From Deltaproteobacteria bacterium (lineage in GTDB: Bacteria > Bdellovibrionota_B > Oligoflexia > Oligoflexales > CAIYRB01): 48,385 bases of DNA. Below are positions 1-15,462 of this stretch, piece by piece. The DNA is taken from the NCBI GenBank assembly GCA_016874735.1, contig VGTI01000032.1, positions 1-48,385 of the forward strand, read 5' to 3'. Position 1 is the stretch's first letter. The number at the start of each line of letters is the position of its first letter. Both the position numbers and the translations under genes were made by a program. The notes under the pieces were generated by a model that was not told the origin of the DNA, did no database searches, and saw only the letters and a program-made list of their open reading frames with translations.

Positions 1-199
1 GGGTGAACAGGAGCGTCGCCGTCAGTTCAGGTGCGTAGGCCACCATCGCCGTCAGACCTGCCACCACGCTACCAAACCCACCAAACCATGGCACGGCAAG
101 GAGCAGCAAGTAGCGAGGATGCGCCCACAACCACCGTACGCCTTCGATATAGGTCTTAAAACCACGACTGAGATCAGCCGCGGGGGTAAGTAACGCCAT
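1..199 (-). CDS. EI24/CysZ-like membrane protein, partial (N-terminal 66 residues)
   Basis: The gene runs off the left edge, so only the N-terminus is seen. Translating the minus strand from the ATG at 199 gives a start like MALLTPAADLSRGFKTYIEG, followed by WLWAHPRYLLLLAVPWFGG and a second hydrophobic stretch. An N-terminal amphipathic 'xxRGFxxxxxGxxxLxxHPR' segment followed by transmembrane helices is typical of the EI24/CysZ family of inner-membrane proteins (sulfate-permease-like or of unknown role). The family call rests on this short segment only. No strong Shine-Dalgarno is visible. Confidence 0.5.
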   Translation of the reverse strand, partial: MALLTPAADLSRGFKTYIEGVRWLWAHPRYLLLLAVPWFGGFGSVVAGLTAMVAYAPELTATLLFT

Positions 200-476
200 G
201 ATCGCCTCGACTCCAGACAACTGGGAACATCCGTCACAATACACAAAAACCAGGTGGACACCTAGCAGATACCGTACAATTGTCTGGCACCGACCTTCAA
301 GTCCGCGACCATTAGGGTTTTCGTGCCTACCATCCCACTCACTTGGGTGCCCAAGCTTTTGACAAACGCCCCTTACCAAAGACTCAAGATTGCGAATTTC
401 CAAGGTTTTAGATTGCGCTCACTTCTTGCAATCGACGATGCTGATCAAGGGAGTCTCATAAGAGAAAGGAAGGCCG
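200..476. other. Intergenic region between divergent genes
   Basis: This is the spacer between the EI24-like gene (minus) and the first vWA lipoprotein (plus). It must hold both promoters. A TTGACA hexamer lies at 359-364, but no good -10 is found 16-18 bases downstream (the nearest, CAAGAT at 385-390, is too far), so I do not call a promoter. A purine-rich Shine-Dalgarno (aagagaaaggaagg, ending near 473) precedes the ATG at 477. Confidence 0.4.
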
Positions 477-1793
477 ATGCTGAATTTACATACCTTGCGG
501 CTCGTGCGGATGATGCCGCTGCGGCGCACTGCAGCAGTGACTGGTCTGACCGTTCTTACGACCGCTCTGACATGGGGTTGCAAAAATGCAAGCTTTGGCG
601 GCAAAGAGCAGGGGGTCCAGGGTAAAAAGAGAGGGGCCGTAGCAGGCGACCTCCAGGCAGTCGATCCCAAAGCCTACGGAACCCCCACTACCGACGCCAT
701 CAGCAAAGCTGGCTGGACGCAGGGCCCAGCAGTGAAATCGCAAATAGACGGACTCTTTACACCGAGCGTGCCCACCATCGGTGGCAACGATGAGGGCCAG
801 AACGGCAGCATCCACAATGATTCCTCGGGTGTTTTATGGCTGCCTTGCGCCGACCAAGGCCTCAATGCGAGTCCACTGAAGTCAGAGTTTTTCGCCAAAG
901 AAGGCGCTAAAGTACGCGTCGCTGGCGAGCTCTGCCCTACGACTCAGATCACGGGCGACGTTAACGTGCTCTTCGTGATTGACCGTTCGGGATCGATGGA
1001 AGGTGCTGGCGGCGAGGGCCCCAACGACAAGACCAGTGGCGGCTCATGCGGACGCCTCCGTGCCGCTCAGGCTCTGACCGACAAGTTTAAATCCATGCCG
1101 AACGTCAATGTGCGGGCTGGCGTCGTCAACTTCTCGACGTCAGCGCGGACCGCAGCGGGCATGGCTCCGCTCAGTCAGCTACCATTGAACGCCTCTCTGT
1201 TCTGCGGCGCGGATCTGGCGGGACTCACTAACTATTACGCGGCATTTTCCGAGGCAACCTCGGTTCTCTCAAAAATTCAGGGCAAAAAAATTGTTTATTT
1301 TATCTCCGATGGCTCACCGACTCTTGGTTTAGGCGATGCGCGTAGCTCCGGCCTGCAGGCTGCCCAGGCTCTGCGTCAGGTTCCGGACGTCACTTTGTAT
1401 GCCCTCTTTGTCGGCTACACGAGCGGCAAAACTACCAATCCTCAGGGGTATCTCGAACAAATCACTGGCGACCCTCAGGCCGTGCGTGTCACCACTAATG
1501 CCCAGGAGCTGGTGCAAGCAGCATCCGGTCTAGGCCAGCCGATCATAGTGATCAAAAAAGAGGATATCGTCGCCCAGCTATCCTCGGGCAACAGCAACCG
1601 CGCCATTAAGATCGAAAGACTCGAGCCCAGTAAAGACACACCAAACCGTTACCACTGGGTCACCGAACCCTTCGAGCTCATCAGCGAAGCAGGTAAGCCG
1701 ACACTGCAACAGCTAGGCGTAACGGCCACGACATCACTGGGCGGCACCGTTAGCACGACGACCGACATCACTTATCACCGGACCACACCGTGA
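477..1793 (+). CDS. von Willebrand factor A domain lipoprotein (copy 1 of tandem pair)
   Basis: This is a 438-aa exported protein. A basic N-terminus and hydrophobic helix end at LTWGC (Cys35), a lipobox-like signal-peptidase II site, so the protein is probably a lipidated envelope protein. The motif ASFGGK follows the cysteine directly. A vWA domain begins near residue 160 with the MIDAS motif DRSGS (Asp169-Ser173). The conserved Thr and Asp of later MIDAS loops may be supplied by the NYYAAFSEA and FISDGSP segments. vWA domains bind ligands through a chelated divalent cation; the partner is unknown. A strong Shine-Dalgarno supports the start at 477. The next gene is a close paralogue, with identical stretches such as GPNDKTSGGSCGRLRAAQ. 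Confidence 0.85.
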   Translation: MLNLHTLRLVRMMPLRRTAAVTGLTVLTTALTWGCKNASFGGKEQGVQGKKRGAVAGDLQAVDPKAYGTPTTDAISKAGWTQGPAVKSQIDGLFTPSVPTIGGNDEGQNGSIHNDSSGVLWLPCADQGLNASPLKSEFFAKEGAKVRVAGELCPTTQITGDVNVLFVIDRSGSMEGAGGEGPNDKTSGGSCGRLRAAQALTDKFKSMPNVNVRAGVVNFSTSARTAAGMAPLSQLPLNASLFCGADLAGLTNYYAAFSEATSVLSKIQGKKIVYFISDGSPTLGLGDARSSGLQAAQALRQVPDVTLYALFVGYTSGKTTNPQGYLEQITGDPQAVRVTTNAQELVQAASGLGQPIIVIKKEDIVAQLSSGNSNRAIKIERLEPSKDTPNRYHWVTEPFELISEAGKPTLQQLGVTATTSLGGTVSTTTDITYHRTTP

Positions 1794-1948
1794 TCCTGTC
1801 GAAAGCACGACTAAAAACGACTAGGTATTAAACGATTGTTGTTTGAATTCGGTCTAACTCATTGGATTCTATAGACACGGTAACGCGCACAGTTCTTGCA
1901 GCTACTAAACTAAAATAAGGGGAGTCGAAATATGAGAAAGGTAAGTAA

Positions 1949-3385
1949 ATGCGTACTCAGGGTACACTTCGACTCCCGCGTTTCGCCGTGGCCGCAGGCC
2001 TGGCGGCACTCACAATCTCGTTAGTATTTGGCTGCAACCAAGCTAGCTTTGGCGGCAAGGAAACCGGTGCTAAGGGTTCGCGCCCATCGGCTAACGGTAC
2101 TGGTAACGACAGCACTAAAAACCCAGGCATCAACGGTGCGGATCCCGCGATCGACCCACAGGCCTACGGGACACCGCCAACCAATGACATCAAAGTGCCG
2201 GGTTGGGTACAAGGCCAACCACTCAAAGACCTAGTGGACGCGCTTTTCGCTCAAGGTAACAACCCCACGATTGGTGATGCACCAGGTGGCGGAGGCGACA
2301 ACGGTGCCAATCAGACTGCGCCGGGTGGCGGCCAAGGTGGTGGCAACGGCAACGTTCCCGTGGGTGCGCCAGGTGGTGGCGGACCGGGCGATAAAGGTAG
2401 CCTGTTTAGCGATGCGTCCGGGGTGTTGTGGTTACCGTGCAACGATCAAGCGAAGAATGACGTACCGTTTAAATCGGAATTCTTTGGCAAGGCTGGCGCG
2501 CAAGTGCGCGCTGCCGGCGAGTTATGCCCTCAAGTTGCATTGACAGGCGACGTCACCCTGCTCTTCGTCATCGATCATTCTGGATCCATGGAGGGCGCAC
2601 TCCTTGAAGGCCCCAATGACAAGACCTCTGGTGGCAGCTGCGGACGCCTCCGTGCGGCTCAAGTTTTAGCGGAGAAATATCGCGCCATGCCTAACGTTAC
2701 GGCACGCGCCGGTGTCGTCAACTTTTCCACCGCTGCGCGGACGGCAGCAGGAATTGCTCCCATCGATCAGCTACCTCTAAGTGCCAATGTTTTCTGCGGT
2801 GCCGATTTAGCGGGATTCACCAACTACTACGCCGCATTTTCTGAGGCGGCATCCGTCCTGGCTAACATCCCCGGTAAAAAATTGGTGTACTTCGTGTCTG
2901 ATGGCTCGCCAACTGTGGGCTTGGGTGACGCACGTAGCTCCGGACTGCAGGCAGCGCAGGCTCTGCGCCAAATTCCGGATGTCACGCTTTTTGCCCTATT
3001 TGTCGGCTACACCAGCGGCAGTGCCAATAATCCGCAGGGCTATCTGGAGCAACTAACCGGTGATCCGAAGGCGGTGCGTGTGACCGCGAATGCTCAAGAA
3101 CTAGTTCAGGCAGCGGCAAGCCTAGGTCAGCCACTCATTGGGATCAAGAAAGAGGACATCACGGCAGAAGTGCTCTCTGCCAGCGGCGCCCGCGAGGTCA
3201 AAATCGACAGATTGGAAGCACGTAAGGACATGCCTAATCGCTATTACTGGGTGACCGAACCATTTGAACTCGAGGGACAAGTTGGTAAACCAACTCTGAG
3301 TCAGCTTGATGTTTCTGCAACGACGTCTTTTGGCACCACAGTTAGTGCTCGGGCAGAGATCACGTATCAGATGACTGCACCTTGA
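1949..3385 (+). CDS. von Willebrand factor A domain lipoprotein (copy 2 of tandem pair)
   Basis: This is a 478-aa paralogue of the preceding gene, 155 bases downstream on the same strand. The signal segment ends at LVFGC (Cys29), again followed by ASFGGK. It differs mainly by a glycine-rich linker of about 45 residues (near residues 108-152, runs such as PGGGGDNG and GGGQGGGNGN) between the N-terminal part and the vWA domain. The MIDAS motif is DHSGS. The region after MIDAS is nearly collinear with copy 1 to the C-terminus. An ATG at 1932 with a good upstream AAGGGGAG is out of frame. The in-frame ATG at 1949 has GAGAAAGG upstream. The last 19 bases overlap the convergent ATPase gene. Confidence 0.85.
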   Translation: MRTQGTLRLPRFAVAAGLAALTISLVFGCNQASFGGKETGAKGSRPSANGTGNDSTKNPGINGADPAIDPQAYGTPPTNDIKVPGWVQGQPLKDLVDALFAQGNNPTIGDAPGGGGDNGANQTAPGGGQGGGNGNVPVGAPGGGGPGDKGSLFSDASGVLWLPCNDQAKNDVPFKSEFFGKAGAQVRAAGELCPQVALTGDVTLLFVIDHSGSMEGALLEGPNDKTSGGSCGRLRAAQVLAEKYRAMPNVTARAGVVNFSTAARTAAGIAPIDQLPLSANVFCGADLAGFTNYYAAFSEAASVLANIPGKKLVYFVSDGSPTVGLGDARSSGLQAAQALRQIPDVTLFALFVGYTSGSANNPQGYLEQLTGDPKAVRVTANAQELVQAAASLGQPLIGIKKEDITAEVLSASGAREVKIDRLEARKDMPNRYYWVTEPFELEGQVGKPTLSQLDVSATTSFGTTVSARAEITYQMTAP

Positions 3386-4539
3386 AAAAGCTCAGTTATA
3401 AACTGAGCTACAGGCCAGATGTCGACACCATCGTCTCGCATACGATCTTGGCCACAGTAGATAAGATGAGTGGCCTTGATTTTGTCCTTGCTCAGACCTG
3501 CAAAGTCCCTCAGTCCACGGGTCCATTCAGAGCGGTATTTGTTCCCGTATTTAATCTCGATGCAGATCAGTTCTCCGGGTTTACCCATGACGGGCTTGCG
3601 GGTCTGTATGATCAAGTCGATATCGTAGGACCCATTAATGGTGTAGTGATAAATCGGGAACAGCTTGAACGTCTGACTCAAGTAGGCACGTAATTGCCCA
3701 AGCACAAAGGTCTCGAGCTGAAAGCCTAGGAAAGCGCTTTCGAGAGGCTGGTTGAGCAGTCCAGCTGTGGCACTAACTACGCCTGGATCAAACAAATAAA
3801 ATTTAGGATGCCTGCTTTCTTTGGTCTTTAGTCCTGGCGACCAAGCAGACACCATAGTACCGAGAAGCGTATCTTCCAAAATACCGAAGTAGTGATCGAC
3901 TGTAGTACGCTTGACCTGACTTTCGCGAGCGATTGACTCCTTATTCAATAACTGACCGTTCGTCAGCCCTACTATGTCGAGAAACCGACGAAATGGATCT
4001 AGGCTGCGTACAACTGCCTCCTCCAAAATCTCTTGACGAAGATAAGTCGTCAGGTAACTGGCAAGTCGCGGCACGCTTTTGCTGTAGTCACTGGCAATGC
4101 CAGGTAACGAGCCATAGTGCAGGCAAGAGTTCAAATCAAAGGCATCACCGAGTTCTAAGCCGTTAAGAGGATAGAACTGCAAATCAAGCAAGCGCCCGCC
4201 GAGGAGATTGGCATGATTCATTTTTAATTTGCGTGCACTTGAGCCAGTGATCGCAAACCGCAGCTTTTTTTTCTGGTACAAAGCATGGACTTCATCGAGG
4301 AGTCCGGGGACCTTTTGAATTTCATCGATGACGACCCATGCACCCTCTTTTAGAGGTTCGCACATTTTACGCAGTAGACTTGGTGTTCGCGAAAGCTCTA
4401 GAAAGCGATCACTCTCAAGTAAGTCGATTGCCAAGTCGGCTGCAATGGACTCCTGGATCCATGTCGACTTGCCGGTGCCTCGCGGTCCCAGCAGCAAGAA
4501 CGAGTCTTCGGGTGGCTTTAAATAACGCTTGAATTTCAT
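3367..4539 (-). CDS. ATPase with DUF4143 C-terminal region (AAA_14/COG1373 type), copy 1
   Basis: This 390-aa protein is probably cytoplasmic. Walker A is GPRGTGKS (residues 18-25), Walker B is VVIDEIQK (about 69-76), and a sensor-like ITGSSARKLK lies near 97-106. A winged-helix-like stretch follows (about 194-227), then a C-terminal part with a PD-(D/E)xK-type pattern: Asp308 in YDIDLII and Glu328-Ile-Lys330 in CIEIK. The architecture and length fit the COG1373/DUF4143 ATPases, which are widespread accessory genes of uncertain function. A homologous gene lies divergently at 4932. The 3' end overlaps the vWA gene by 19 bases, and a terminator-like hairpin sits inside its last codons. A promoter is proposed at 4563-4590. 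No good Shine-Dalgarno precedes the ATG. Confidence 0.85.
   Translation of the reverse strand: MKFKRYLKPPEDSFLLLGPRGTGKSTWIQESIAADLAIDLLESDRFLELSRTPSLLRKMCEPLKEGAWVVIDEIQKVPGLLDEVHALYQKKKLRFAITGSSARKLKMNHANLLGGRLLDLQFYPLNGLELGDAFDLNSCLHYGSLPGIASDYSKSVPRLASYLTTYLRQEILEEAVVRSLDPFRRFLDIVGLTNGQLLNKESIARESQVKRTTVDHYFGILEDTLLGTMVSAWSPGLKTKESRHPKFYLFDPGVVSATAGLLNQPLESAFLGFQLETFVLGQLRAYLSQTFKLFPIYHYTINGSYDIDLIIQTRKPVMGKPGELICIEIKYGNKYRSEWTRGLRDFAGLSKDKIKATHLIYCGQDRMRDDGVDIWPVAQFITELFQGAVI
3384..3409 (-). terminator. Hairpin plus T-tract inside the 3' end of the ATPase gene
   Basis: A perfect 9-bp stem (3389-3397 with 3401-3409, loop ATA) is followed on the minus strand by TTTTTC (3388-3383). In minus-strand orientation it looks like an intrinsic terminator, but it lies before the ATPase stop codon (3367-3369). 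On the plus strand it begins just after the vWA stop and lacks a T-tract. It may serve mainly as a 3' end for the vWA transcript. Confidence 0.45.
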
Positions 4540-4552
4540 TATGTTACACTAT

Positions 4553-4569
4553 TTACAACGCTATTGTAA
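4553..4569. promoter_or_regulatory. Palindrome TTACAA-N5-TTGTAA, candidate operator
   Basis: This 6+6 bp inverted repeat overlaps the proposed -10 element of the minus-strand ATPase gene, 14 bases upstream of its start codon. The position is typical for a repressor site. The regulator is unknown. Confidence 0.4.
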
Positions 4570-4590
4570 TATTCGCTTCTATTTCTACAA
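4563..4590 (-). promoter_or_regulatory. Candidate sigma70-type promoter of the minus-strand DUF4143 ATPase
   Basis: On the minus strand, TTGTAG (4590-4585), a 16-base spacer, and TACAAT (4568-4563) lie 24 bases upstream of the ATG at 4539. Both hexamers are close to consensus. Confidence 0.45.
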
Positions 4591-4883
4591 TACCATCGTA
4601 GGAATAGAAATCAACCAGAACCGCATGCATGCCGCCACCTTAGCCTTTCAGTTTCCGCGCCCGGCTGCTCCGGGCGAGCGGTGAAAAAAGTCCAGGCACC
4701 GGGTCCTAAACACCGAAAACTTTAGCCCTATAAATGCCAAATTTTTTCACCTCAATTTTAGACCCAGGGCACCGATTTACCCAATGTCATGTGCTAAGAA
4801 TTAAATCAGTGGTGCTCACTATTTCAGTAACCTAGCGCCAGTGACCGCACGCCCTTTTCGAGAAAGTTTGTGATCCGCATTCA

Positions 4884-4928
4884 AAAGTGCTACTTTATAT
4901 TTTTGACCAAAATCGAAAGTAATACTTT
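4884..4928. promoter_or_regulatory. Two AAAGTNNTACTTT palindromes upstream of the plus-strand DUF4143 ATPase
   Basis: The copies lie at 4884-4896 and 4916-4928 and share the consensus AAAGT[GA][CA]TACTTT. Their centres are 32 bp apart, close to three helical turns, so both face the same side of DNA. The second ends three bases before the ATG at 4932. The pair looks like a cooperative operator, possibly for autoregulation. Confidence 0.5.
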
Positions 4929-4931
4929 TCT

Positions 4932-6140
4932 ATGGATGGCTATCAAAGAACGTTAAACCTACCCGATTTAATCAGGAAAAATTCATTTTTCCTGTTCGGC
5001 CCCAGGGGGACAGGTAAAAGTTACCTGATCCGCAACACCCTAAAAGACATAGCGATCAAGATCGACCTCCTACGTTCTTCTATTCAGATGCGTCTTTTAC
5101 AAGATCCGTCCCTACTTGAGTCTATGATCAGGGCCGAGATCCGCCCAGGAACTGCAGATAGCGCTGTCGTCGTTGTGATAGATGAGGTGCAAAAGATCCC
5201 TGTGCTGCTCGACGAGGTACACCGGCTCATCGAAGAGCATGGCTGGCGCTTTTTGCTCACCGGTAGCAGTGCGCGCAAATTGAAGTCCCAGGGGGTCAAT
5301 CTACTGGCTGGTCGCGCTTGGATTGCCAAAATGTTTCCGCTAACCTACGCAGAGCTGCCGCACTTTGATCTAGATCTGTATCTTCGCTTTGGTGGGCTAC
5401 CTGCAGTCGTCAACAGCTCGGACCCAATCGAGCAACTAGATGCCTACGTCAGCACCTTCATCAACGAGGAAATTAAGGCAGAGGGAGCGATACGAAAACT
5501 ACCTGCTTTTGTCGAGTTTTTACGTCTAGCGGCCTTGAGTAATGGGCAATTGATCAATTTCGCAAACATCGCACGAGATGCTGGAGTCTCCGCTCCTACA
5601 GTCGCAGGTTATTTTCAAATCCTTGAGGATACGTTGGTCGGCTTTCAGCTACAGCCGTGGAAAAAACCAACATCACGTAAGTCCATAAGTACGGCCAAGT
5701 TTTATTTCTTCGATACAGGCGTGGTCAATACTCTAGCAGGTACAAAGCACGTCGATCGCAACTCGAATCTTTACGGTAATCTATTTGAAACCTGGATTGC
5801 CATGGAGCTCCAAGCATACCTGAGCTATCGCCGTATCAAAGACAAGCTTTACTTCTGGCGCACAGACGACAAGATCGAAGTAGATTTTATCATCGAGGAT
5901 CGCGTCGCTATTGAGGTCAAATCTACGACCAAAGTGAGCAGAAGCGACCTGAGCGGACTCGCAGCGCTCAAGCAAGACGGACTAGTAGCTAAATACTATG
6001 TCGTCTCAAACGACCCCTTGGATCGCTTACTGGATGAAGTGCACCACCTCCACTGGCGCACTTTCATGCAAAAACTTTGGCGGGACGAGTTACCCGGATT
6101 AATGCCTCGTTCACCAAGTTATCACAACACCCGACCTTGA
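4932..6140 (+). CDS. ATPase with DUF4143 C-terminal region (AAA_14/COG1373 type), copy 2
   Basis: This 402-aa protein is a paralogue of the divergent gene at 3367-4539. Walker A is GPRGTGKS (23-30), Walker B is VVIDEVQK (81-88), and LLTGSSARKLK follows near 108-118. A winged-helix-like stretch occurs around 204-238 (NGQLINFANIARDAGVS). The C-terminal half carries a PD-(D/E)xK-like pattern, Asp318 in EVDFII and Glu328-Val-Lys330 in AIEVKS. The two proteins share the same order of motifs but are clearly diverged. No ribosome site is visible before the ATG, and a palindrome almost abuts it. The family is often found in accessory regions; its substrate and role are not established from sequence. 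Confidence 0.85.
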   Translation: MDGYQRTLNLPDLIRKNSFFLFGPRGTGKSYLIRNTLKDIAIKIDLLRSSIQMRLLQDPSLLESMIRAEIRPGTADSAVVVVIDEVQKIPVLLDEVHRLIEEHGWRFLLTGSSARKLKSQGVNLLAGRAWIAKMFPLTYAELPHFDLDLYLRFGGLPAVVNSSDPIEQLDAYVSTFINEEIKAEGAIRKLPAFVEFLRLAALSNGQLINFANIARDAGVSAPTVAGYFQILEDTLVGFQLQPWKKPTSRKSISTAKFYFFDTGVVNTLAGTKHVDRNSNLYGNLFETWIAMELQAYLSYRRIKDKLYFWRTDDKIEVDFIIEDRVAIEVKSTTKVSRSDLSGLAALKQDGLVAKYYVVSNDPLDRLLDEVHHLHWRTFMQKLWRDELPGLMPRSPSYHNTRP

Positions 6141-6250
6141 TTAACCAAAGTCGCAAGATTTTCGCTTATCGAGAACACTACTCACCCACGACAATTAAAG
6201 GGTCACAGCCCTCTATGCCGAAAGCCATCAATGGGCGAAGGGGGTGATTC

Positions 6251-6652
6251 GTGGGCGCAGTTGCCAACAAAGAGCACATGGAATTGATCCTAGACGGTGC
6301 TGCCTTTCATAAGGCTGTGAGCATCATAGTCGATCGCGACGAGATACTTTGGCTTGGCTTTGATCCGTTCAGCCAAATTGGTATGTTTCAAAGTAGCAAT
6401 ACACCGTCACTGCAAGATTTTTGCGAGAAGAACCCAGAATACCATATCGTGACCTACACGTCCGACCATCGCTACGTGAACCGTTTTGTTCCAGATCAGA
6501 GAGTGTATATGCTGGCTACTGGAGATAAGAATCCATACTTGGTGCATAACCCGTGGATCGATCCTATGCATCACCTAATCGAGGAAGACGTCTTCAGTCA
6601 ACTTAGCTGCGAACCTAACCAGATCCGGCGAGGTCGCAAGACCAAGGCGTAA
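6251..6652 (+). CDS. Hypothetical protein, 133 aa
   Basis: I do not recognise this protein. The GTG start at 6251 is supported by the Shine-Dalgarno AAGGGGGTG just upstream. There is no signal peptide or membrane segment. The sequence has several aromatic-rich stretches (EILWLGFDPF, NPWIDPMHHL) and a basic C-terminus (RRGRKTKA). It stands alone between the ATPase gene and the IS-disrupted lipoprotein gene, in a locally AT-richer, accessory-looking stretch. A TTG-started frame on the opposite strand (6575-6871) overlaps its end but lacks a ribosome site. Confidence 0.6.
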   Translation: MGAVANKEHMELILDGAAFHKAVSIIVDRDEILWLGFDPFSQIGMFQSSNTPSLQDFCEKNPEYHIVTYTSDHRYVNRFVPDQRVYMLATGDKNPYLVHNPWIDPMHHLIEEDVFSQLSCEPNQIRRGRKTKA

Positions 6653-7118
6653 CTTTTCTGTCGCAATGAATTCGTCACTAATACATCCCTTGTGAATATT
6701 TGCATATCGGGAAAATCTACGATAATCCGCGGAAAAACGGTCAAACCGCCGCATCGCTCGCACAGTAAGTCGCTCAAAAACGACCCAAGCATCAAAATGA
6801 TCTGCGGAGATATAACTCGCAATCTGCTGCTCAATTATCTTCCGGTCATCAGTCGCAAACCTATTTATCAATTTGCCACTACGGCAAGTACCAATCTACT
6901 GTGATGGTATCTTCATCGATTTGCTCCTTGAGACTCGACACAAGCCCCTTAACAGGGGAGCACCACCAAAACGAATTGAGTGGCCAGTCCATGTTCCATC
7001 GTTCACAGTTGATCGCGGCGAGTATCGCAAGTTAGACTAAAATCGCCAGACTACATGAAAAATCACTTTATGCTCTCGTGCTGCGCCGGTTTTTAAACTT
7101 TAGGGCTTTAGGGTATTT
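6653..7118. other. Gene-poor gap, 466 bp
   Basis: No supported gene is seen. The only sizeable frames are a 70-aa plus-strand frame with no ribosome site and a TTG-started minus-strand frame (6575-6871). A weak 5-bp stem (CCCCT-TAAC-AGGGG) lies near 6943-6956. A tandem CTTTAGGG repeat near 7100-7113 supplies the AGGG ribosome site for the ATG at 7119. Confidence 0.4.
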
Positions 7119-7240
7119 ATGACTCAATCATACAAACTACTCGCTCCCATCGTCCTATCTTTAGCCATCCTCAGCGCCTGCGTCACCACCTCTGACGGCG
7201 ATAAAATCCCTCCCCTAGGACCGGAGCGTTGCACGCATCT

Positions 7241-7248
7241 TAAAAAGA
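7241..7248. repeat. Left target-site duplication (TAAAAAGA)
   Basis: This 8-bp direct repeat immediately outside the left IS end is identical to 8546-8553. Eight-base duplications are usual for ISL3-family elements. Confidence 0.9.
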
Positions 7249-8545
7249 GGGGCTTCCGGTTATCAAGTGGCGAGCAAGTCAGGTTGCAAGTCTAATCCAC
7301 CAAGATGGAAGTAGACCGCCATCTTAAAATTCTCGGTGTTGCGAAAGCCACATGCCATCTTTTTTACTTTCTGGATTCTAGCATTGTTGCTTTCCGCATT
7401 GCCGCTGTTCGCCTTTAGCCTGATCGCGTTAATGATCATCCAAAGTTGTTTTTTCAAGCTTTTTGCCAGCGTCTTCATTGGCTCAAGTCGGCTTTTCGCC
7501 ATACGCGACAGCAACTGCTTCCATTCTCGTTCAGCTACACCTATGTACACATAATCCCACAGGCCATGCGCGATCTCTTTTAACGCCCAAGCTCTAGATG
7601 TTTTTAGCGCGCTGTTTGCCACCTCCATGAAGCTTCTTCGGCTGCGATTATCGATTGCGGCGCTTGTTCTTAGCCAATCGTATTTTGTGCCCTTTAGAGT
7701 TTCGTCACCCTCTGCCATTAGCTTGCGATGCTCTTTCTTTCGAACATCGTTAACGGCCTTTCCGAAATATCCAGCAACATGAAATCGGTCGAGACAAATC
7801 TTCGACTCGGCATCTGGGACATATTCTAGGGTACTTGAACGATAGGCATTCCACAGATCCATGCTGACGCTTCGGACGCCTGCACGAGCCTCATCAGATA
7901 GGGTATTCCAGAATGCATCAATGGACTCCTTGTCACGACCTGCCTCTACGTGGAGTACACAACCCCCTTCGCTGACAACAGTCAAATAGTTGTGCCCCTT
8001 CTTTTCGCTAGTCTCGTCGATTGATATATCAATTGGCGTGACAGGGCCTCGGCGATTTAACCCGCGCTCAACAGCTCTGTGCTGGATTCGTAGAGCGGAA
8101 TCCCAGTCAATTCTCATGCGTTCAGATACCGCTGACACTGGAGCGGCTTCCAGCCATTTGATAACCAATGCCTCAAACAATAACGTAAAATGAGATCCCT
8201 TTTCGGCCCATGGGACACTCACCATTTTTACGCCATGCTCCGTGCATTTAATCCGCGGGACTTGACATTCAATGATTGTGTCTAGCTGGCATGTATCTAG
8301 ATGCCGCCATCTGCGAGGCTTTTTGTCGTGACGTGGGCATTCTGCCGAGCACTCTGGGCAGGGAAATGAGTAACTCTGGTCAAACTCGAGGGCCACTGTG
8401 ATTGAGTTAGACTCAATTGAGAGCTTCACGGATTCAACTGACCACGGGAATGAGATGCCTAAAATTTGAGCGTATAAATCTTTGTCGTTCATTCCCTGGA
8501 TTATACATGTTTTCGGTGATTAGCCACTCGAATTCCTGATGCCCC
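7249..8545 (-). mobile_element. ISL3-family insertion sequence, complete, 1297 bp
   Basis: The ends are imperfect terminal inverted repeats. Reading inward, the left end is GGGGCTTCCGG...TCAAGTGGC and the right end is GGGGCATCAGG...TCGAGTGGC, with 17 of the first 23 positions matching. An identical 8-bp duplication flanks the element. One transposase gene fills it, with its stop codon inside the left repeat. A TATAAT on the minus strand (8505-8500) lies just upstream of the transposase start. Exact duplication, intact repeats and an uninterrupted transposase suggest a recent, possibly still active insertion. Confidence 0.92.
7263..8492 (-). CDS. tnp: ISL3-family transposase
   Basis: This 409-aa DDE transposase has an N-terminal zinc-binding cluster (Cys45, Cys48, Cys52, then Cys76, Cys83 and His86) that fits the ISL3 family's ribbon DNA-binding domain. 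The catalytic acids are Asp159 (SIDET), Asp212 (SMDLW) and Glu367 (NAESNN). CLDRFHVAGYF matches the family's conserved 'D.FH' region. Length and motif order fit a full-length enzyme. The ATG at 8492 lies 53 bases inside the right end, preceded directly by CAGGGA and by a TATAAT 8 bases upstream. Confidence 0.93.
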   Translation of the reverse strand: MNDKDLYAQILGISFPWSVESVKLSIESNSITVALEFDQSYSFPCPECSAECPRHDKKPRRWRHLDTCQLDTIIECQVPRIKCTEHGVKMVSVPWAEKGSHFTLLFEALVIKWLEAAPVSAVSERMRIDWDSALRIQHRAVERGLNRRGPVTPIDISIDETSEKKGHNYLTVVSEGGCVLHVEAGRDKESIDAFWNTLSDEARAGVRSVSMDLWNAYRSSTLEYVPDAESKICLDRFHVAGYFGKAVNDVRKKEHRKLMAEGDETLKGTKYDWLRTSAAIDNRSRRSFMEVANSALKTSRAWALKEIAHGLWDYVYIGVAEREWKQLLSRMAKSRLEPMKTLAKSLKKQLWMIINAIRLKANSGNAESNNARIQKVKKMACGFRNTENFKMAVYFHLGGLDLQPDLLAT

Positions 8546-8553
8546 TAAAAAGA
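8546..8553. repeat. Right target-site duplication (TAAAAAGA)
   Basis: This copy is identical to 7241-7248 and directly follows the right IS end (GCCCC, 8541-8545). Coding sequence of the disrupted lipoprotein resumes at 8554. Confidence 0.9.
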
Positions 8554-9677
8554 AGATCCGCTGGTCAGATCCTATCGACACGCTTAATCGTGTCTCGCAG
8601 TTATTTGCCAACGAGTGCTACGAAGAAACCGTGGCCATAGGCTCTAAGGCTCGGGACGCTTATAGTCACAAAACTTACTCCGTCCTCAAAGAGTCGCTCG
8701 AGCTGTTTGTCGCCGAGGGTACGGTCACCGATTACGTACTAGAGAGTTACGAGCGTGGGTATTTGTCATTCTTGATCACCATGGCACTCGTCAATTTGCA
8801 GCGCACGGATCAGGTCACGGCTGAGCTCAATAGGTTTTATAATGAGGAGGTCGCGGCGACTTATAACCACGGCCAGGATCCGGTCAATGCCCTGCTGCAA
8901 GCCACCCTGTGGGACAACTTCCCGCGCGAGGGTTATTCATCGCGGCCGTTCTGGCTCTGGCTCAGTAAATCGCCACAATCGTCGTCAGAGTTGCGCTATT
9001 TTGCGGCCAATCGCGTCAAGAATATCGACCTCAAGTCAAGCACCCCCTCGTGGCACATAGCTGCCGTTGGCAACTTCCCGGAGCTCGATTGGTCGCTTAA
9101 GTTTACCGACTCCTCCAACGGCTTCCTTGCGGTGAAACCAACTACACCGTTTATCGCCACCTGCTCAGACCCTAGCTCGATCGTCGTACCAACTAATACC
9201 TGGTTTAAAAAGATCGCCATTCGACACAGCAACAGTTATCACCCGCTGGTCAACGCCAAGACCTGGATCCGCATGCCCGTCGGCATCATTTACGGCATCT
9301 CGACCGTAGTTGCCGGAGCCGGCATTGCCGTGGGTGGCTGCACCGCTGATGTGAGCATGGATGTGAAAGGAGCCCTCTGCCAGCTCAGCCTGCGCGGCGG
9401 CGTCGCCGTGATGGCTTCTAGTGGCGACGTGGTGAAGAGCACCGTTCGTCCGGATCTCAGGCATTGGGAGGCAATCCCCGAGGCTATTGTGATCACCAAC
9501 GATCAAAAGGGCATTAACAGGGACTCAGACGGCCAGTCCGCCTGCTTAAAGACAATCAAGCAACGCACGGTGACGCCTTTGTTCGCGCCTAGTTGAGATG
9601 ATGTCCTATATTTGCTGTGCTAATCGACCGCTTTTATCGCAACCACCAAATGACTAAATAAACCAAGTTTAGGGTGC

Positions 9678-9720: not shown

Positions 9721-11019
9721 ATGGGGGTTAGTCACCCAAATCTCAAACGCAGCAGCGTGCCATTGCTTGGTGCCCTAGCCCTGTTGTTACTGTCTGCCGC
9801 TGCCCCGGGCTCAGTGGATCAGGCCCCAGCCCCCCTACCCTACCCGGCGGGCCTCAGTATGCCGTGGCGCCTACTCAACATCGATAGTGCCGAAGCCGCG
9901 CGTACAAGGCCTGCACTTAATGCGAGCGCCAAAGCTCTAGCAGCGAGCTGGCTCACTGCACCCGACCTCGTCACCAAGTCCTTAACGCGCACCAAGCCAA
10001 CCCATAATAATCAGCGTCGCACTGACCAAATACAAGCTGGTCAACCTAAGGCGGCAGTTGGCGTCCCATCGGTGACGGTGGAGCCTAGTTGGTGCTCGAT
10101 CATGAATCGCCATCTCTTCTTTGTCACGGTAACGGATAGCAAACTAAATACGGTGCTAGGGTCAGCTCATACAGCTATCCCGCGCGGTGACTGGGCCAAG
10201 CTCCGGACTAAAGAGCAGATGACCAATTTCCTCACGAGCAAACTAGAAGACCTCGCCACCAAAGCGATCGCCAAGGCGACGATTAAGCCCAAAGTCGCAA
10301 CGGATGCGATGCATCTAGGTTTAACTCTTGGCAAAGAAGTCACACGCATCGACGAGGGTAGTAGCTGGTGCCTCAATCAACTCCTAGAGGAGCAGTTGGC
10401 ACCAGAGCACACGGTGGTGCGCTCCCTAGGCCACGACCATTTAGGACTACTCAGGGACTTGCTCGGTCAACCCGCCGCACTTAAGCGGCCAACGCGGATG
10501 TTATTGCTCGATTGGATGCACGATGGAGAGGCTACCTTCAAACCTGAAGTGCCGGTTAAGTTCACCGTGACTGGTGCGCTCCTCGAATCTGTATACGGTA
10601 AACACGTTCATGATGACTATCAGGGTAATATTCTCGGCCGTGACGGTGCAGCTGCCACAGTGGAGCTGACGGGTCCAGGCTACGATAGCCTGGTCTCACT
10701 CGTGAAAGCTGAGGAAAAAACCCTACAACTCGCCGAGTGGCCCCAAGTCGTTAAGCGCGACCGCGCCTGGGTCTATCTCGATCGCGGCAGAGCCTGGGGC
10801 TTGAAAATGAACGACAGACTCCTAGCCGAGGTCGATGGCGAAACGGTTAAGGGACACGTCGTCCACTTCTACGGACCGGAGGCCAAGCTGAAATCGCCAC
10901 GGGGATTCCCAGTCGAAGAGGGCGCAGTCCTCTTTATCCGCCTCAACCAGAAGTTGCCACGCGTAGGCACCACCTTTAGATTCGATCCAAGAACATTCCC
11001 GACCAAGTATCCGCCGTGA
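9721..11019 (+). CDS. Secreted protein of unknown function with a FlgT-like C-terminal segment
   Basis: This 432-aa protein has an N-terminal signal peptide (hydrophobic LLGALALLLLSAAAPGS) and a strong ribosome site (AGGGAGG, 4 bases before the ATG at 9721). A mixed alpha/beta region from about residue 115 contains SWCSIMNRHLFF and SSWCLNQLLEE; the two Trp-Cys pairs could form a disulfide. The C-terminal 100 residues include DRAWVYLDRGRAWGLKMNDR and EEGAVLFIRL. These resemble the small beta-barrel 'V.LN.G...GVK.GD.' repeats of FlgT and CsgG-type proteins, but this is pattern resemblance only. The next gene begins 13 bases after the stop, so the two are probably co-transcribed. Confidence 0.7.
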   Translation: MGVSHPNLKRSSVPLLGALALLLLSAAAPGSVDQAPAPLPYPAGLSMPWRLLNIDSAEAARTRPALNASAKALAASWLTAPDLVTKSLTRTKPTHNNQRRTDQIQAGQPKAAVGVPSVTVEPSWCSIMNRHLFFVTVTDSKLNTVLGSAHTAIPRGDWAKLRTKEQMTNFLTSKLEDLATKAIAKATIKPKVATDAMHLGLTLGKEVTRIDEGSSWCLNQLLEEQLAPEHTVVRSLGHDHLGLLRDLLGQPAALKRPTRMLLLDWMHDGEATFKPEVPVKFTVTGALLESVYGKHVHDDYQGNILGRDGAAATVELTGPGYDSLVSLVKAEEKTLQLAEWPQVVKRDRAWVYLDRGRAWGLKMNDRLLAEVDGETVKGHVVHFYGPEAKLKSPRGFPVEEGAVLFIRLNQKLPRVGTTFRFDPRTFPTKYPP

Positions 11020-11923: not shown

Positions 11924-12790
11924 TTACTTGCCTAGCGCCTTCGGAGCGCGCGCCTGCCCGACAAATCCTGCCAAAACAACAATGGTGACGACGTAAGGCA
12001 GTATCTGAATAAACTGCACGGGCACCTTGCCCAAATACTGTAGTTCAATACCCTGGAGACGCATCTGCATAGCGTCAGCTAAACCGAAAAACAAGCAAGC
12101 CACGAGCGTCGGGACTGGCTTCCATTTGCCGAGTATCAGTGCAGCAAGAGCAATGAATCCACGGCCAGAGGTCATATTGCGCGAGTACGACGACGACAGG
12201 AAGATCGAGAGACTTGCCCCGCCGAGACCAGCAAAAAAGCCGGAGGCCAAAACCGCAGCCCACCGCACTCTGGCGACATTAATGCCTGCAGCAGCGAGCG
12301 CTGCTGGGTGCTCACCGGCAAACTGCAACCACAGGCCACCACGCGTAAACCTTAGCCCCGCTGCTAGGACGACCGGGAGCACAAGCGCGATCACAATAGG
12401 CGCATAGGCAAACCGGTGCACCAAGTCGATGGCCGGTGTTGAGCCAGTAACATCATAGAGCACTTTGGCGCAGAAGGGCGGCAGACCGTAGGCCAGCATA
12501 TTGATACCTGTGCCGGCGACAATTTGATTGGCACGCAGCGGCAGCACGATCCAGCCATAAAATGCAGCGAGCAGTAATCCAGTCGCGCCACCGGCAACAA
12601 GACCAAGCCACGGTGACGACAGATCGTAGGTCACCACAGCGGCGGCAAACGCTCCAACGAGCATCATCCCTTCGAGTGCGATATTGATGACCCCGCTGCG
12701 CTCACAGATTAGGCCACCCATGGCGGCAAATATCAGCGGTGTCGCTAAGCGCGCCGAGGCGCCGCAGATGTCTAGGAGATAGCTATCCAT
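11924..12790 (-). CDS. Nucleoside-type ABC transporter permease (NupQ/YufQ family)
   Basis: This is the last gene of a four-gene BMP-family ABC transporter operon. From ATG 12790 it encodes 288 aa with about eight to ten hydrophobic helices and the typical GLICERSGVINIALEGMML segment of this branched-chain-like permease family. The start is chosen at 12790 because AAAGGAGG lies 8 bases upstream; a longer frame to 12862 exists but lacks support. It overlaps the preceding permease gene by 8 bases (ATGGATAG). Known relatives import purine nucleosides across the inner membrane; the substrate here is inferred. Confidence 0.88.
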   Translation of the reverse strand: MDSYLLDICGASARLATPLIFAAMGGLICERSGVINIALEGMMLVGAFAAAVVTYDLSSPWLGLVAGGATGLLLAAFYGWIVLPLRANQIVAGTGINMLAYGLPPFCAKVLYDVTGSTPAIDLVHRFAYAPIVIALVLPVVLAAGLRFTRGGLWLQFAGEHPAALAAAGINVARVRWAAVLASGFFAGLGGASLSIFLSSSYSRNMTSGRGFIALAALILGKWKPVPTLVACLFFGLADAMQMRLQGIELQYLGKVPVQFIQILPYVVTIVVLAGFVGQARAPKALGK

Positions 12791-13865
12791 GTGCCCTACC
12801 TCCTTTGGCAGCCGTCTGCCGACGCAGGCGCATGAGCCACGCCAGCGCTCCATCAGCCGCAACAGCCAAGACGACCATGGCTTGAATGATACCAGCCAAA
12901 TCTTTGGTCACGTGATCCGTCTCGAGATCAAGCTCCGAGGTACCCTTCTGCAGAATGCCAAACATCAGCGCACTGGCGACCAGTCCCAGCGGATGAGCCC
13001 TAGCCATCAGTGCCACAGGGATCCCGATAAATCCGTAATCGGGAGAAAATCCCAGGCGAAATCTACCGCTGTTGCCGCACACCTCAGCCACGCCGACAAG
13101 TCCAGCTAGGCCACCACCGATAGCCATTACCCATAGCTGGGTAAGGCGCGTATCGATACCAGCAAAGCGAGCCGCATCGGTGTTTAGGCCCGTAGCTTTC
13201 AGCTCAAAACCGCGCACGGTGTATTTAAGTGCCAGCCAGATGCCGAGCGCGACTAAACCGGCCAGAAGTAAAGCAGCCGTCACGGGCGCACCACCGAATA
13301 GACTGAAAGCATGCCACATATAGCCAGCACCGATCTTGGCTGACTCAGGATTTTGTGAATCCGTGCTCGGGATCAGCGCCAGCACTACCCAACTCGTCAG
13401 CCCAGCGGCAACAAAGTTGAGCATGATGGTGGTAATGACTTCGTGGCTGCCACGGTAGGCTCTCAGCCAACCCGCCATTGCGCCCCACAGAGCACCGCCG
13501 GCGAAGGCAACTAGTACAGCGAGTACGGCACTGTAGGGGGCCGGAATATTAGGTAACGAGACGCCAAGAGCCGCCACAGCCACAGCACCCATCAGCAGCT
13601 GGCCCTCGGCACCTATATTAAAGAGACCAGCTCTAAATGGAAGTGCCACGGCTAAACCGGTAAAAATGAGCGGCGTTGCATAAAAGAGTGTCATGCCAAG
13701 GTCATAAGACGTACCGACTGCACCCTGAATGATGACGACTAGTACTTGCCACGGATTTTCTCCGGCAAACGCCGTGAGCCCTACACCGAGAAGAAGACCG
13801 ACCAAGGCAGCAACGACGGGCCGCAGCGACTGGGCAACATTGCGCATACGGTTTACGCTAGTCAA
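12783..13865 (-). CDS. Nucleoside-type ABC transporter permease (NupP/YufP family)
   Basis: This inner-membrane permease of about 360 aa has roughly nine to ten hydrophobic segments. It includes TPLIFTGLAVALPFRAGLFN and NIGAEGQLLMGA, the signature region of BMP-associated permeases, and YRGSHEVITTIMLNFVA. I prefer the TTG at 13865. It overlaps the ATPase stop in TTGACTAG, exactly as the next gene overlaps this one by 8 bases, and GGGGGG lies 5 bases upstream. ATG 13847 is the alternative, without a ribosome site. The open frame extends to 13922 inside the ATPase gene. It pairs with the NupQ-like permease to form the channel. Confidence 0.88.
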   Translation of the reverse strand: MTSVNRMRNVAQSLRPVVAALVGLLLGVGLTAFAGENPWQVLVVIIQGAVGTSYDLGMTLFYATPLIFTGLAVALPFRAGLFNIGAEGQLLMGAVAVAALGVSLPNIPAPYSAVLAVLVAFAGGALWGAMAGWLRAYRGSHEVITTIMLNFVAAGLTSWVVLALIPSTDSQNPESAKIGAGYMWHAFSLFGGAPVTAALLLAGLVALGIWLALKYTVRGFELKATGLNTDAARFAGIDTRLTQLWVMAIGGGLAGLVGVAEVCGNSGRFRLGFSPDYGFIGIPVALMARAHPLGLVASALMFGILQKGTSELDLETDHVTKDLAGIIQAMVVLAVAADGALAWLMRLRRQTAAKGGRAHG

Positions 13866-15462
13866 GGACACCCCCCATGAGGCGACCCAGCTTTGCCTCG
13901 TCGACGCCGCGCTCGCATTCACCTACCAAGCGACCTTCGTACATGACAACAATACGATCAGAGAGTGCCAGAATTTCCTCAAGAGACGAGGATACGAGTA
14001 AAATGGCCATACCTGCATTACGTGCGGCTAGAATACGCTCGTGAATGAATTCAATAGCACCGACATCAACACCGCGAGTTGGTTGCGCGCAGATGAGGAG
14101 GTTCGGCTTGCGCGCAAACTCGCGCGCAAGAATGAGCTTCTGCTGATTACCACCGGAAAGGCCATGGGCCAGTGCCGATGGCGATGCCGGACGTATGTCA
14201 AATTCCTTGATTGCCTCACGCAGTCTATCCTGGACAACCTGTGAGCGAATGATGCCTGATTCGCTAAATTCGGGCTCATGAGCGAGACCCAGGAGAAAGT
14301 TTTGCGTGAGGTCTTGGTCCATCAAGAGGCCTTGGCGATGCCGATCCTCGGGCACCATACCAACCCCAAGCGCCCGCACGGCAGCAGCACGCATATGCCG
14401 GACGTCGGTGCCAAACATAGTTAGCTGACCATGGGCGTTTAATTTGCCCCGCACATCATGCCGCCGAAAATATTCATGCGGATCTGCCAGTAGCTCCAGG
14501 AGCTCTGACTGGCCGTTGCCCTCGACGCCGGCGATTCCCAAAATTTCACCACTGCGCAAGGTAAGATCGATCTGGGATAGCCGTGGTTTTTCGCCCTTGA
14601 GTCCGAGACTCAGCTGATGGCAGGAGAGCGCCACACCACCAAGCTGCGGCTCTGGCGGTTTTGCTGCCGTCAGCTGCACGGCGCGTCCCACCATTTGCTC
14701 GGCCAAAGTTTGTTCCGTCAGACCATCGGTGGTACCGGTTGCCACGATGCGTCCAGCGCGCAGCACGGCGTAATCATCGGCATGCGTCAGCACTTCGCTG
14801 AGTTTGTGCGTGATGACGATGACAGTTTTCCCCTGCTCCTTCAAATGAGCAAGGTTAGTATAAAACGATGCCGCTTCTTGTGGTGTCAGGACGGCGGTCG
14901 GCTCGTCCAAGATCAGAATCTGGGCATCGCGGTAGAGTAGTTTCAAGATCTCGAGTCGCTGCTGCACACCCACGGGCGTGGCATTAACGAGAGCATCTAA
15001 GTTGACCGCCAATTGGTGCGAGGCCATCAGTCTTGTCAGCTTGTCGATTGCCTTGCTGCGCACGATAGGGCGCAGCCACTTAGGTAACCAACTCCCCAAC
15101 GCGGCCTCAGGCTCGTCACCGAGGATGATATTGTCGAGTCCCGAGTGCGGGGCCGCCAGCATAAAGTGCTGATGGACCATGCCCAAACCAGCTTTAATCG
15201 CATCTCTGGGCGAGCTCCAGGTGTGTTCTTGACCGTTGATCAAGATTTGACCCTGATCGGGCCGGTGTAGGCCGTAGAGAAGATTCATGCATGTGGATTT
15301 ACCGGCACCGTTCTCGCCAACCAGCGCAAAGATACTGCCGCGGCGCACCGCAAAGGACACGTCGGCATTAGCCCGCAAGCTGCCGAAGCTTTTGCTGACG
15401 CCGCGCATTTCTACGGAATAAGCGCTAGCTGAGACCGATGGGGCTTGTGGGGGGGTGCTCAC
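13858..15462 (-). CDS. Nucleoside-type ABC transporter ATP-binding protein (NupO/YufO family)
   Basis: This 534-aa protein has two fused nucleotide-binding domains. The first has Walker A GENGAGKS (49-56), Walker B ILILDEPTAVL, and a degenerate signature (TPVGVQQRLEI). The second has a degenerate Walker A (GVEGNGQSEL), a good signature LSGGNQQK, and Walker B LLICAQPTRGVDVGA. This asymmetry is standard for the RbsA/NupO/YufO group. It powers import by the two downstream permeases. The GTG start overlaps the stop of the binding-protein gene in GTGA (15459-15462), showing translational coupling. Confidence 0.92.
   Translation of the reverse strand: MSTPPQAPSVSASAYSVEMRGVSKSFGSLRANADVSFAVRRGSIFALVGENGAGKSTCMNLLYGLHRPDQGQILINGQEHTWSSPRDAIKAGLGMVHQHFMLAAPHSGLDNIILGDEPEAALGSWLPKWLRPIVRSKAIDKLTRLMASHQLAVNLDALVNATPVGVQQRLEILKLLYRDAQILILDEPTAVLTPQEAASFYTNLAHLKEQGKTVIVITHKLSEVLTHADDYAVLRAGRIVATGTTDGLTEQTLAEQMVGRAVQLTAAKPPEPQLGGVALSCHQLSLGLKGEKPRLSQIDLTLRSGEILGIAGVEGNGQSELLELLADPHEYFRRHDVRGKLNAHGQLTMFGTDVRHMRAAAVRALGVGMVPEDRHRQGLLMDQDLTQNFLLGLAHEPEFSESGIIRSQVVQDRLREAIKEFDIRPASPSALAHGLSGGNQQKLILAREFARKPNLLICAQPTRGVDVGAIEFIHERILAARNAGMAILLVSSSLEEILALSDRIVVMYEGRLVGECERGVDEAKLGRLMGGVLD

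Follow-up and report, generated by a model that had tools for sequence, protein, structure and literature searches.

An ISL3-family insertion sequence in an accessory lipoprotein gene of an Oligoflexales bacterium

Is the lipoprotein gene that appears to be cut in two by a transposase gene in a bacterium of the order Oligoflexales (assembly GCA_016874735.1, contig VGTI01000032.1, positions 1 to 48,385; this entire stretch of 48,385 nucleotides is called the window below) a genuine knock-out by an insertion sequence (IS) and, if so, which gene was hit, how recently, and by what kind of element? The answer that we hold with very high confidence is that an autonomous IS of the ISL3 family split an accessory lipoprotein gene of 390 codons, leaving a null allele. 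The features concerned are the following.

7119..7248, plus strand: 5' piece of the lipoprotein gene, with the start codon, a signal-peptide-like stretch and the lipobox LSAC (Cys21)
7119..7295, plus strand: truncated open reading frame (ORF) after the insertion, 58 codons, 43 from the gene and the last 15 from the left end of the IS
7241..7248, no strand: left copy of the 8-bp target-site duplication TAAAAAGA, a direct repeat in the window
7249..8545, minus strand: ISL3-family IS, 1297 bp, single copy in the genome
7249..7270, no strand: left terminal inverted repeat, 16/22 match to the right one
7263..8492, minus strand: intact transposase, 409 aa (Pfam PF01610, PF13542, PF14690; NCBIfam NF033550)
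8524..8545, no strand: right terminal inverted repeat, 16/22 match to the left one
8546..8553, no strand: right copy of the target-site duplication TAAAAAGA, a direct repeat in the window
8554..9596, plus strand: 3' piece of the lipoprotein gene, with the remaining two bases of codon 44, a further 346 codons and the stop

The element, its ends and its provenance

The 409-residue transposase matches three Pfam domains above the curated cut-offs (PF01610 at 2.3e-55, PF13542 at 2.8e-13 and PF14690 at 4.2e-8) and scores 270 bits, against a cut-off of 180, with the ISL3 model of NCBIfam (NF033550), which bears out the initial annotation of this locus as an ISL3 element with an intact transposase. 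The aspartates of the SIDE and SMD motifs and the glutamate of NAESNN are aligned and conserved with two homologues, and we take these three acidic positions to be the DDE triad. Imperfect inverted ends starting with GG are a defining trait of ISL3 elements, and the two ends of the IS in the window, GGGGCTTCCGGTTATCAAGTGG and GGGGCATCAGGAATTCGAGTGG, show this trait; once either is reverse-complemented, the two have 16 of 22 positions in common. The 8-bp target duplication expected of the family is present as well, with TAAAAAGA flanking both sides of the IS, so that the initially proposed exact duplication around a 1297-bp element with inverted ends was recovered in full. This target is A-rich and the 8-mer is frequent in the window (7 occurrences against 0.92 expected), so the 8-bp repeat by itself proves little; when pairs of 400-bp flanks were subjected to Markov shuffling, 4003 of 5000 contained such a repeat, whereas an 8-bp repeat bounding inverted ends with at least 16 of 22 matches occurred in none of the 5000. 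The genome is a draft assembly of 166 contigs, a circumstance under which the junction might be suspected of being an assembly chimera; we consider this extremely improbable, because an exact 8-bp duplication bounded by both inverted ends of a complete IS is not what a chimera is expected to produce.

In plasmid records, the closest transposases are approximately 40% identical to the one in the window, and all 3325 matching records are below 60%. The IS boundaries were inspected for 2 of the 15 plasmid-borne relatives listed, namely, a homologue of 1333 bp on a Salinivibrio proteolyticus plasmid, with the 8-bp direct repeat AAATGCAT, and an ISKox3-like homologue of 1316 bp on an Escherichia coli plasmid, with the 8-bp direct repeat ATATGCAT. 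The end pattern GGNNCTTC...GTGG is common to the IS in the window and both of these homologues, with the right end in the window differing by one base; with the same end pattern and 8-bp duplications in two homologous IS, the delimitation of the element to the base, as claimed from the outset, is supported. Moreover, no copy of the IS with different ends came to light: the host genome contains exactly one copy, and the ends of the homologous IS agree.

The other 57 genomes of the class yielded no DNA-level relative of the IS; with no sister copy in the host genome or in the class, the ends were compared with those of homologous IS only. Among the 37 relatives sampled, only distant transposases were detected, 24 to 54% identical over matches of varying length, and a search for inverted ends around three ISL3 elements among the relatives (a set including genomes G003 and G007) gave none that were clear. 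The transposase had no relative in the viral contigs and no match among the solved structures. The G+C content of the IS is 48.4%, compared to 57.6% for the window downstream of position 11924. To judge from these sequence comparisons, the IS would have arrived from outside the class, a scenario that fits the single copy and the exclusively distant relatives. The ends are defined here for an ISL3 element to which nothing closely related was found in the collections searched.

The interrupted gene and its uninterrupted relatives

The 5' piece runs to the end of codon 43 and takes in one further base, the first of codon 44; the 3' piece continues without a stop or a frameshift across 346 codons. 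The coordinates add up to a single gene: 43 codons to position 7247, a split codon made of 7248 and 8554-8555, 346 codons in 8556-9593 and the stop in 9594-9596, that is, 390 amino acids, in agreement with the initial claim that removal of the IS and one copy of the duplication rejoins a 390-residue lipoprotein in frame. As it stands, the upstream part encodes a truncated peptide with a signal-like N-terminus and the lipobox LSAC, both predicted from the sequence; the lipobox had been correctly noted at first, but the length given then, 57 residues, should be 58 codons. The start listed for the ORF in the 3' piece is a GTG at 8631, which yields 321 amino acids without a signal-peptide stretch, and translation of the remnant from an internal start is conceivable. 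The number of promoter-like sites in this region, 2, was no higher than the 2.4 expected by chance.

Each of the two pieces has its own ORF with a possible start, so one might suppose that they have always been separate genes, with the IS located between them by chance. This supposition is effectively eliminated by the relatives, in which the pieces form one gene. Querying 38 genomes with the 3' piece identified it in 7, namely, the host genome, five more members of the genus and a genome from a different family. The uninterrupted protein that had been anticipated was found in 5 of the 6 other carriers, where one ORF spans the insertion point; this ORF is complete in G001, G003, G005 and G013, and in G002 it is an ORF fragment that crosses the insertion point and is continuous as far as the contig reaches. 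In separate tblastn queries, the match of the 5' piece in G001, G002, G003 and G013 ends within a few codons of the start of the 3' piece in the same ORF; in G005, the 5' piece gave no tblastn match, and the ORF continues for 47 codons upstream, including the lipobox cysteine. By eye, the lipobox is LSAC in the window and SGC or SAC in the relatives. At the insertion site itself, G002 reads LKNKIKW and the window reads LKK, the split codon and IRW, with no alignment gap; the G002 contig stops 45 codons past this point and the other half of the gene is on a second contig. Besides the continuous ORFs and the gap-free alignment, the lack of a signal peptide in the 3' piece taken by itself is again at odds with two independent genes. 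The sixth carrier, G004, is the closest relative at this locus, and its contig starts inside the gene, so that the insertion point lies outside the sequence. As a separate observation, contigs 41 and 224 of G002 (L039 and L038) break inside the lipoprotein gene, 45-48 codons past the insertion point, with approximately two codons missing.

The preferred explanation is that an autonomous ISL3-family IS inserted itself at codons 41-44 of this accessory lipoprotein gene, duplicating the A-rich 8-bp target TAAAAAGA and splitting the 390-codon gene into a 58-codon ORF for a truncated lipoprotein and a 346-codon remnant without an export signal. The outcome would be a null allele: we infer that the function of the gene has been lost, and this suggests that the strain can do without the broken gene. 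Conceivably, the state of the locus might instead be reversible or polymorphic, with an empty site in some of the cells and precise excision between the 8-bp repeats restoring the gene. The exact repeats and the intact transposase are compatible with such a switch, as are the circular intermediates reported for ISL3 elements (PMC3812183), but we assign it only a slim chance.

Age of the insertion and the accessory nature of the gene

Given that the 3' part contains neither a stop nor a frameshift, we infer that the insertion is young on the evolutionary scale. By simple counting, neutral drift is expected to introduce 41.7 stops per unit of divergence into the 346 codons; none is observed, so that the neutral divergence since the insertion should be less than about 0.07 (95%, calculated by hand). 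The initial description of the insertion as probably recent is therefore supported in evolutionary terms, not in years. Synonymous sites are saturated in all pairs except for G001-G003, and accordingly, the analysis relied solely on non-synonymous counts and unique changes rather than on dN/dS. Of 110 positions at which the five other sequences all agree, the window retains the common residue at 105 and departs at 5, in a stretch shared with G002; in the same test, G002 departs at 1 of 106 positions in the shared stretch. Unique changes in the window and G002 numbered 17 and 13, respectively, with G005 as the outgroup, 17 and 8 with G003, 17 and 6 with G001, and 15 and 7 with G013; in a Tajima test by hand, only the 17:6 ratio obtained with G001 would pass at 5%. 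This excess in the window could reflect relaxed selection for some time and hence a less recent insertion. The slight surplus of unique changes, together with a 6-residue insertion at the C-terminus, also would be compatible with the IS having fallen into an old pseudogene, after the death of the gene. However, 346 codons without a stop or frameshift, when some 41.7 stops per unit of divergence are expected under neutrality, and the retention of most of the invariant residues make this improbable. Under the preferred explanation, in which the IS broke an intact gene, selection on the remnant may have been slightly relaxed, yet the insertion cannot be called old.

Two parts of the locus are conserved across the genus, namely, the gene that comes after the lipoprotein, at 9721-11019, and the transporter genes within 11924-15462. 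The lipoprotein itself is upstream of the 9721 gene in G000 and G004 and elsewhere in G001, G002, G003 and G005; in G002 and G005, the homologue of the 9721 gene is directly preceded by a relative of the gene at window positions 2-418. Core genes of G002 and G005 are 95-99% identical in many proteins, and yet, their lipoproteins are only 63% identical, and the G002 lipoprotein is closer to that of the window (74%). The changing neighbourhood and the similarities that are at odds with the core genes mark the lipoprotein as accessory; the sequence comparisons point to its movement or differential loss within the genus.

Several further observations concern the surroundings. Nothing corresponding to window positions 477-9596 lies between the conserved flanking genes of G002 and G005, and this interval looks like a site of gene turnover; beyond the 9721 homologue, G002 and G005 have other genes. 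The G+C content of 477-7118 is 51.4%, compared to 57.6% downstream. Two divergent ATPases of the AAA_14/DUF4143 type are encoded at 3367-4539 (minus strand) and 4932-6140 (plus strand); such ATPases are strongly expanded in the group, with 17 matches in the host genome, 43 in G003 and 40 in G007, some of the copies containing stops. Two small convergent, overlapping ORFs, at 6251-6652 (plus strand) and 6575-6871 (minus strand), have relatives (40% and 29%) that are again convergent and overlapping in G002 (L065 8924-9679), and possibly form a two-gene module; for the ORF at 6575-6871, there was only a sub-threshold Pfam match (E 0.053), which was not taken as a function. Finally, the secreted proteins encoded in tandem at 477-1793 and 1949-3385 look related to each other and contain von Willebrand A domains, with the match for 1949-3385 below the Pfam cut-off.

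Probable distant relationship to the lpoB-linked lipoprotein and comparison with known elements

What the broken gene encodes was approached through its family. Six lipoprotein sequences matched no family in Pfam and gave a single chance-level match in NCBIfam (E 0.11, one member), which was dismissed; the lipoprotein profile had no match among the solved structures, and the G005 lipoprotein had no relative in plasmid and phage records. An AlphaFold2 model of the 3' piece, built on a two-row alignment, reached a mean pLDDT of 30 and was set aside. When the class was searched with a profile, the family was detected in 7 of 58 genomes and, in addition, a weak match in G031 (E 1.6e-4); the phylum search covered the same 58 genomes. 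In G031, the match is to a TPR-like lipoprotein encoded beside LpoB, the latter identified by both Pfam and NCBIfam. LpoB is an activator of peptidoglycan synthase, and the TPR lipoproteins encoded next to lpoB presumably are those named COG3014. Lipoproteins of the G031 type (L074 661-1962 and its relatives) occur in 52 of the 58 class genomes, with an intact copy in the host genome, and lpoB adjoins this core lipoprotein at all 20 loci inspected. Of these lipoproteins, the G031 protein was the one scanned; it belonged to no NCBIfam family and matched only weak TPR models in Pfam.

When a profile of the four intact accessory lipoproteins was compared with 1595 ORFs from the loci retrieved, the lpoB-linked proteins came immediately after the family itself and ahead of all remaining ORFs (E 4e-6 to 0.6). 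In the opposite direction, a profile of the lpoB-linked proteins gave E values of 4e-5 and 6e-5 for the accessory lipoproteins of G001 and G003, 0.006 for that of G005, 0.17 for that of G013 and 4.3 for the piece in the window, and the profile-profile comparison (hhalign), which was weak and local only, gave 57% (A4) and 20% (A1). The lpoB-linked alignment (A3) comprised 9 sequences, from G031 and 8 of the 19 other loci, picked from full-length ORFs found at 17 of the 20 loci with one strand read. Of 236 distinct ORFs with a length of 250 amino acids or more, 22 contain the motif D.R.W..LP, all of them in the two lipoprotein families, with another residue at the leucine position in the window, G001 and G003. 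Thus, the broken gene resembles the lpoB-linked TPR lipoprotein in its lipoprotein signal with a lipobox, in the local similarity around DY..E.YE (profile E down to 4e-6 among 1595 ORFs) and in D.R.W...P near the C-terminus, but differs in the low overall similarity, in its accessory rather than core distribution and in its neighbours, lpoB being found in none of the 8 sequences that contain the family, the window included. Since lpoB is not near the accessory genes, these likenesses are taken as signs of distant homology rather than of family membership: judging by sequence, the broken gene probably is a distant homologue of the lpoB-linked lipoprotein and not a member of that group. The more specific scenario, in which the broken gene would be a horizontally moving accessory paralogue of the partner lipoprotein of LpoB and the IS would be a natural knock-out with the core copy persisting, is one that we can put forward only tentatively, as it seems rather doubtful. 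In any case, the locus draws attention to an unnamed family of accessory lipoproteins and to an unnamed, nearly universal lipoprotein beside lpoB in this class. On contig 39 of G003 (L076 1243-1692), a second piece of a lipoprotein C-terminus, nearly the same as that of the intact gene of G003, is located where an unrelated reading frame ends and is probably the remnant of another copy.

Mechanistically, the insertion is an ordinary, textbook case of an IS knock-out, and the element itself belongs to a well-known family. With the ISKox3-like branch of ISL3, the IS in the window shares the transposase family, the 8-bp duplications, a similar length (1297 bp compared to 1316 and 1333 bp) and ends with the starting GG, CTTC and GTGG at matching positions, although its transposase is only about 40% identical to those of the best plasmid-borne relatives. 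Eight base pairs is the classical length of the ISL3 direct repeat, exemplified by TTCTTTTT in an element of Pseudomonas aeruginosa (PMC7643977). The P. aeruginosa element CLJ-ISL3 / ISPst2 likewise interrupts genes, produces A/T-rich 8-bp duplications and, like the IS in the window, has imperfect inverted ends starting with GGG (PMC7643977). By contrast, CLJ-ISL3 / ISPst2 is 2985 bp long, contains two further genes and reaches up to 40 copies (PMC7643977), whereas the IS in the window is an element of 1297 bp that encodes the transposase only and is present in one copy.
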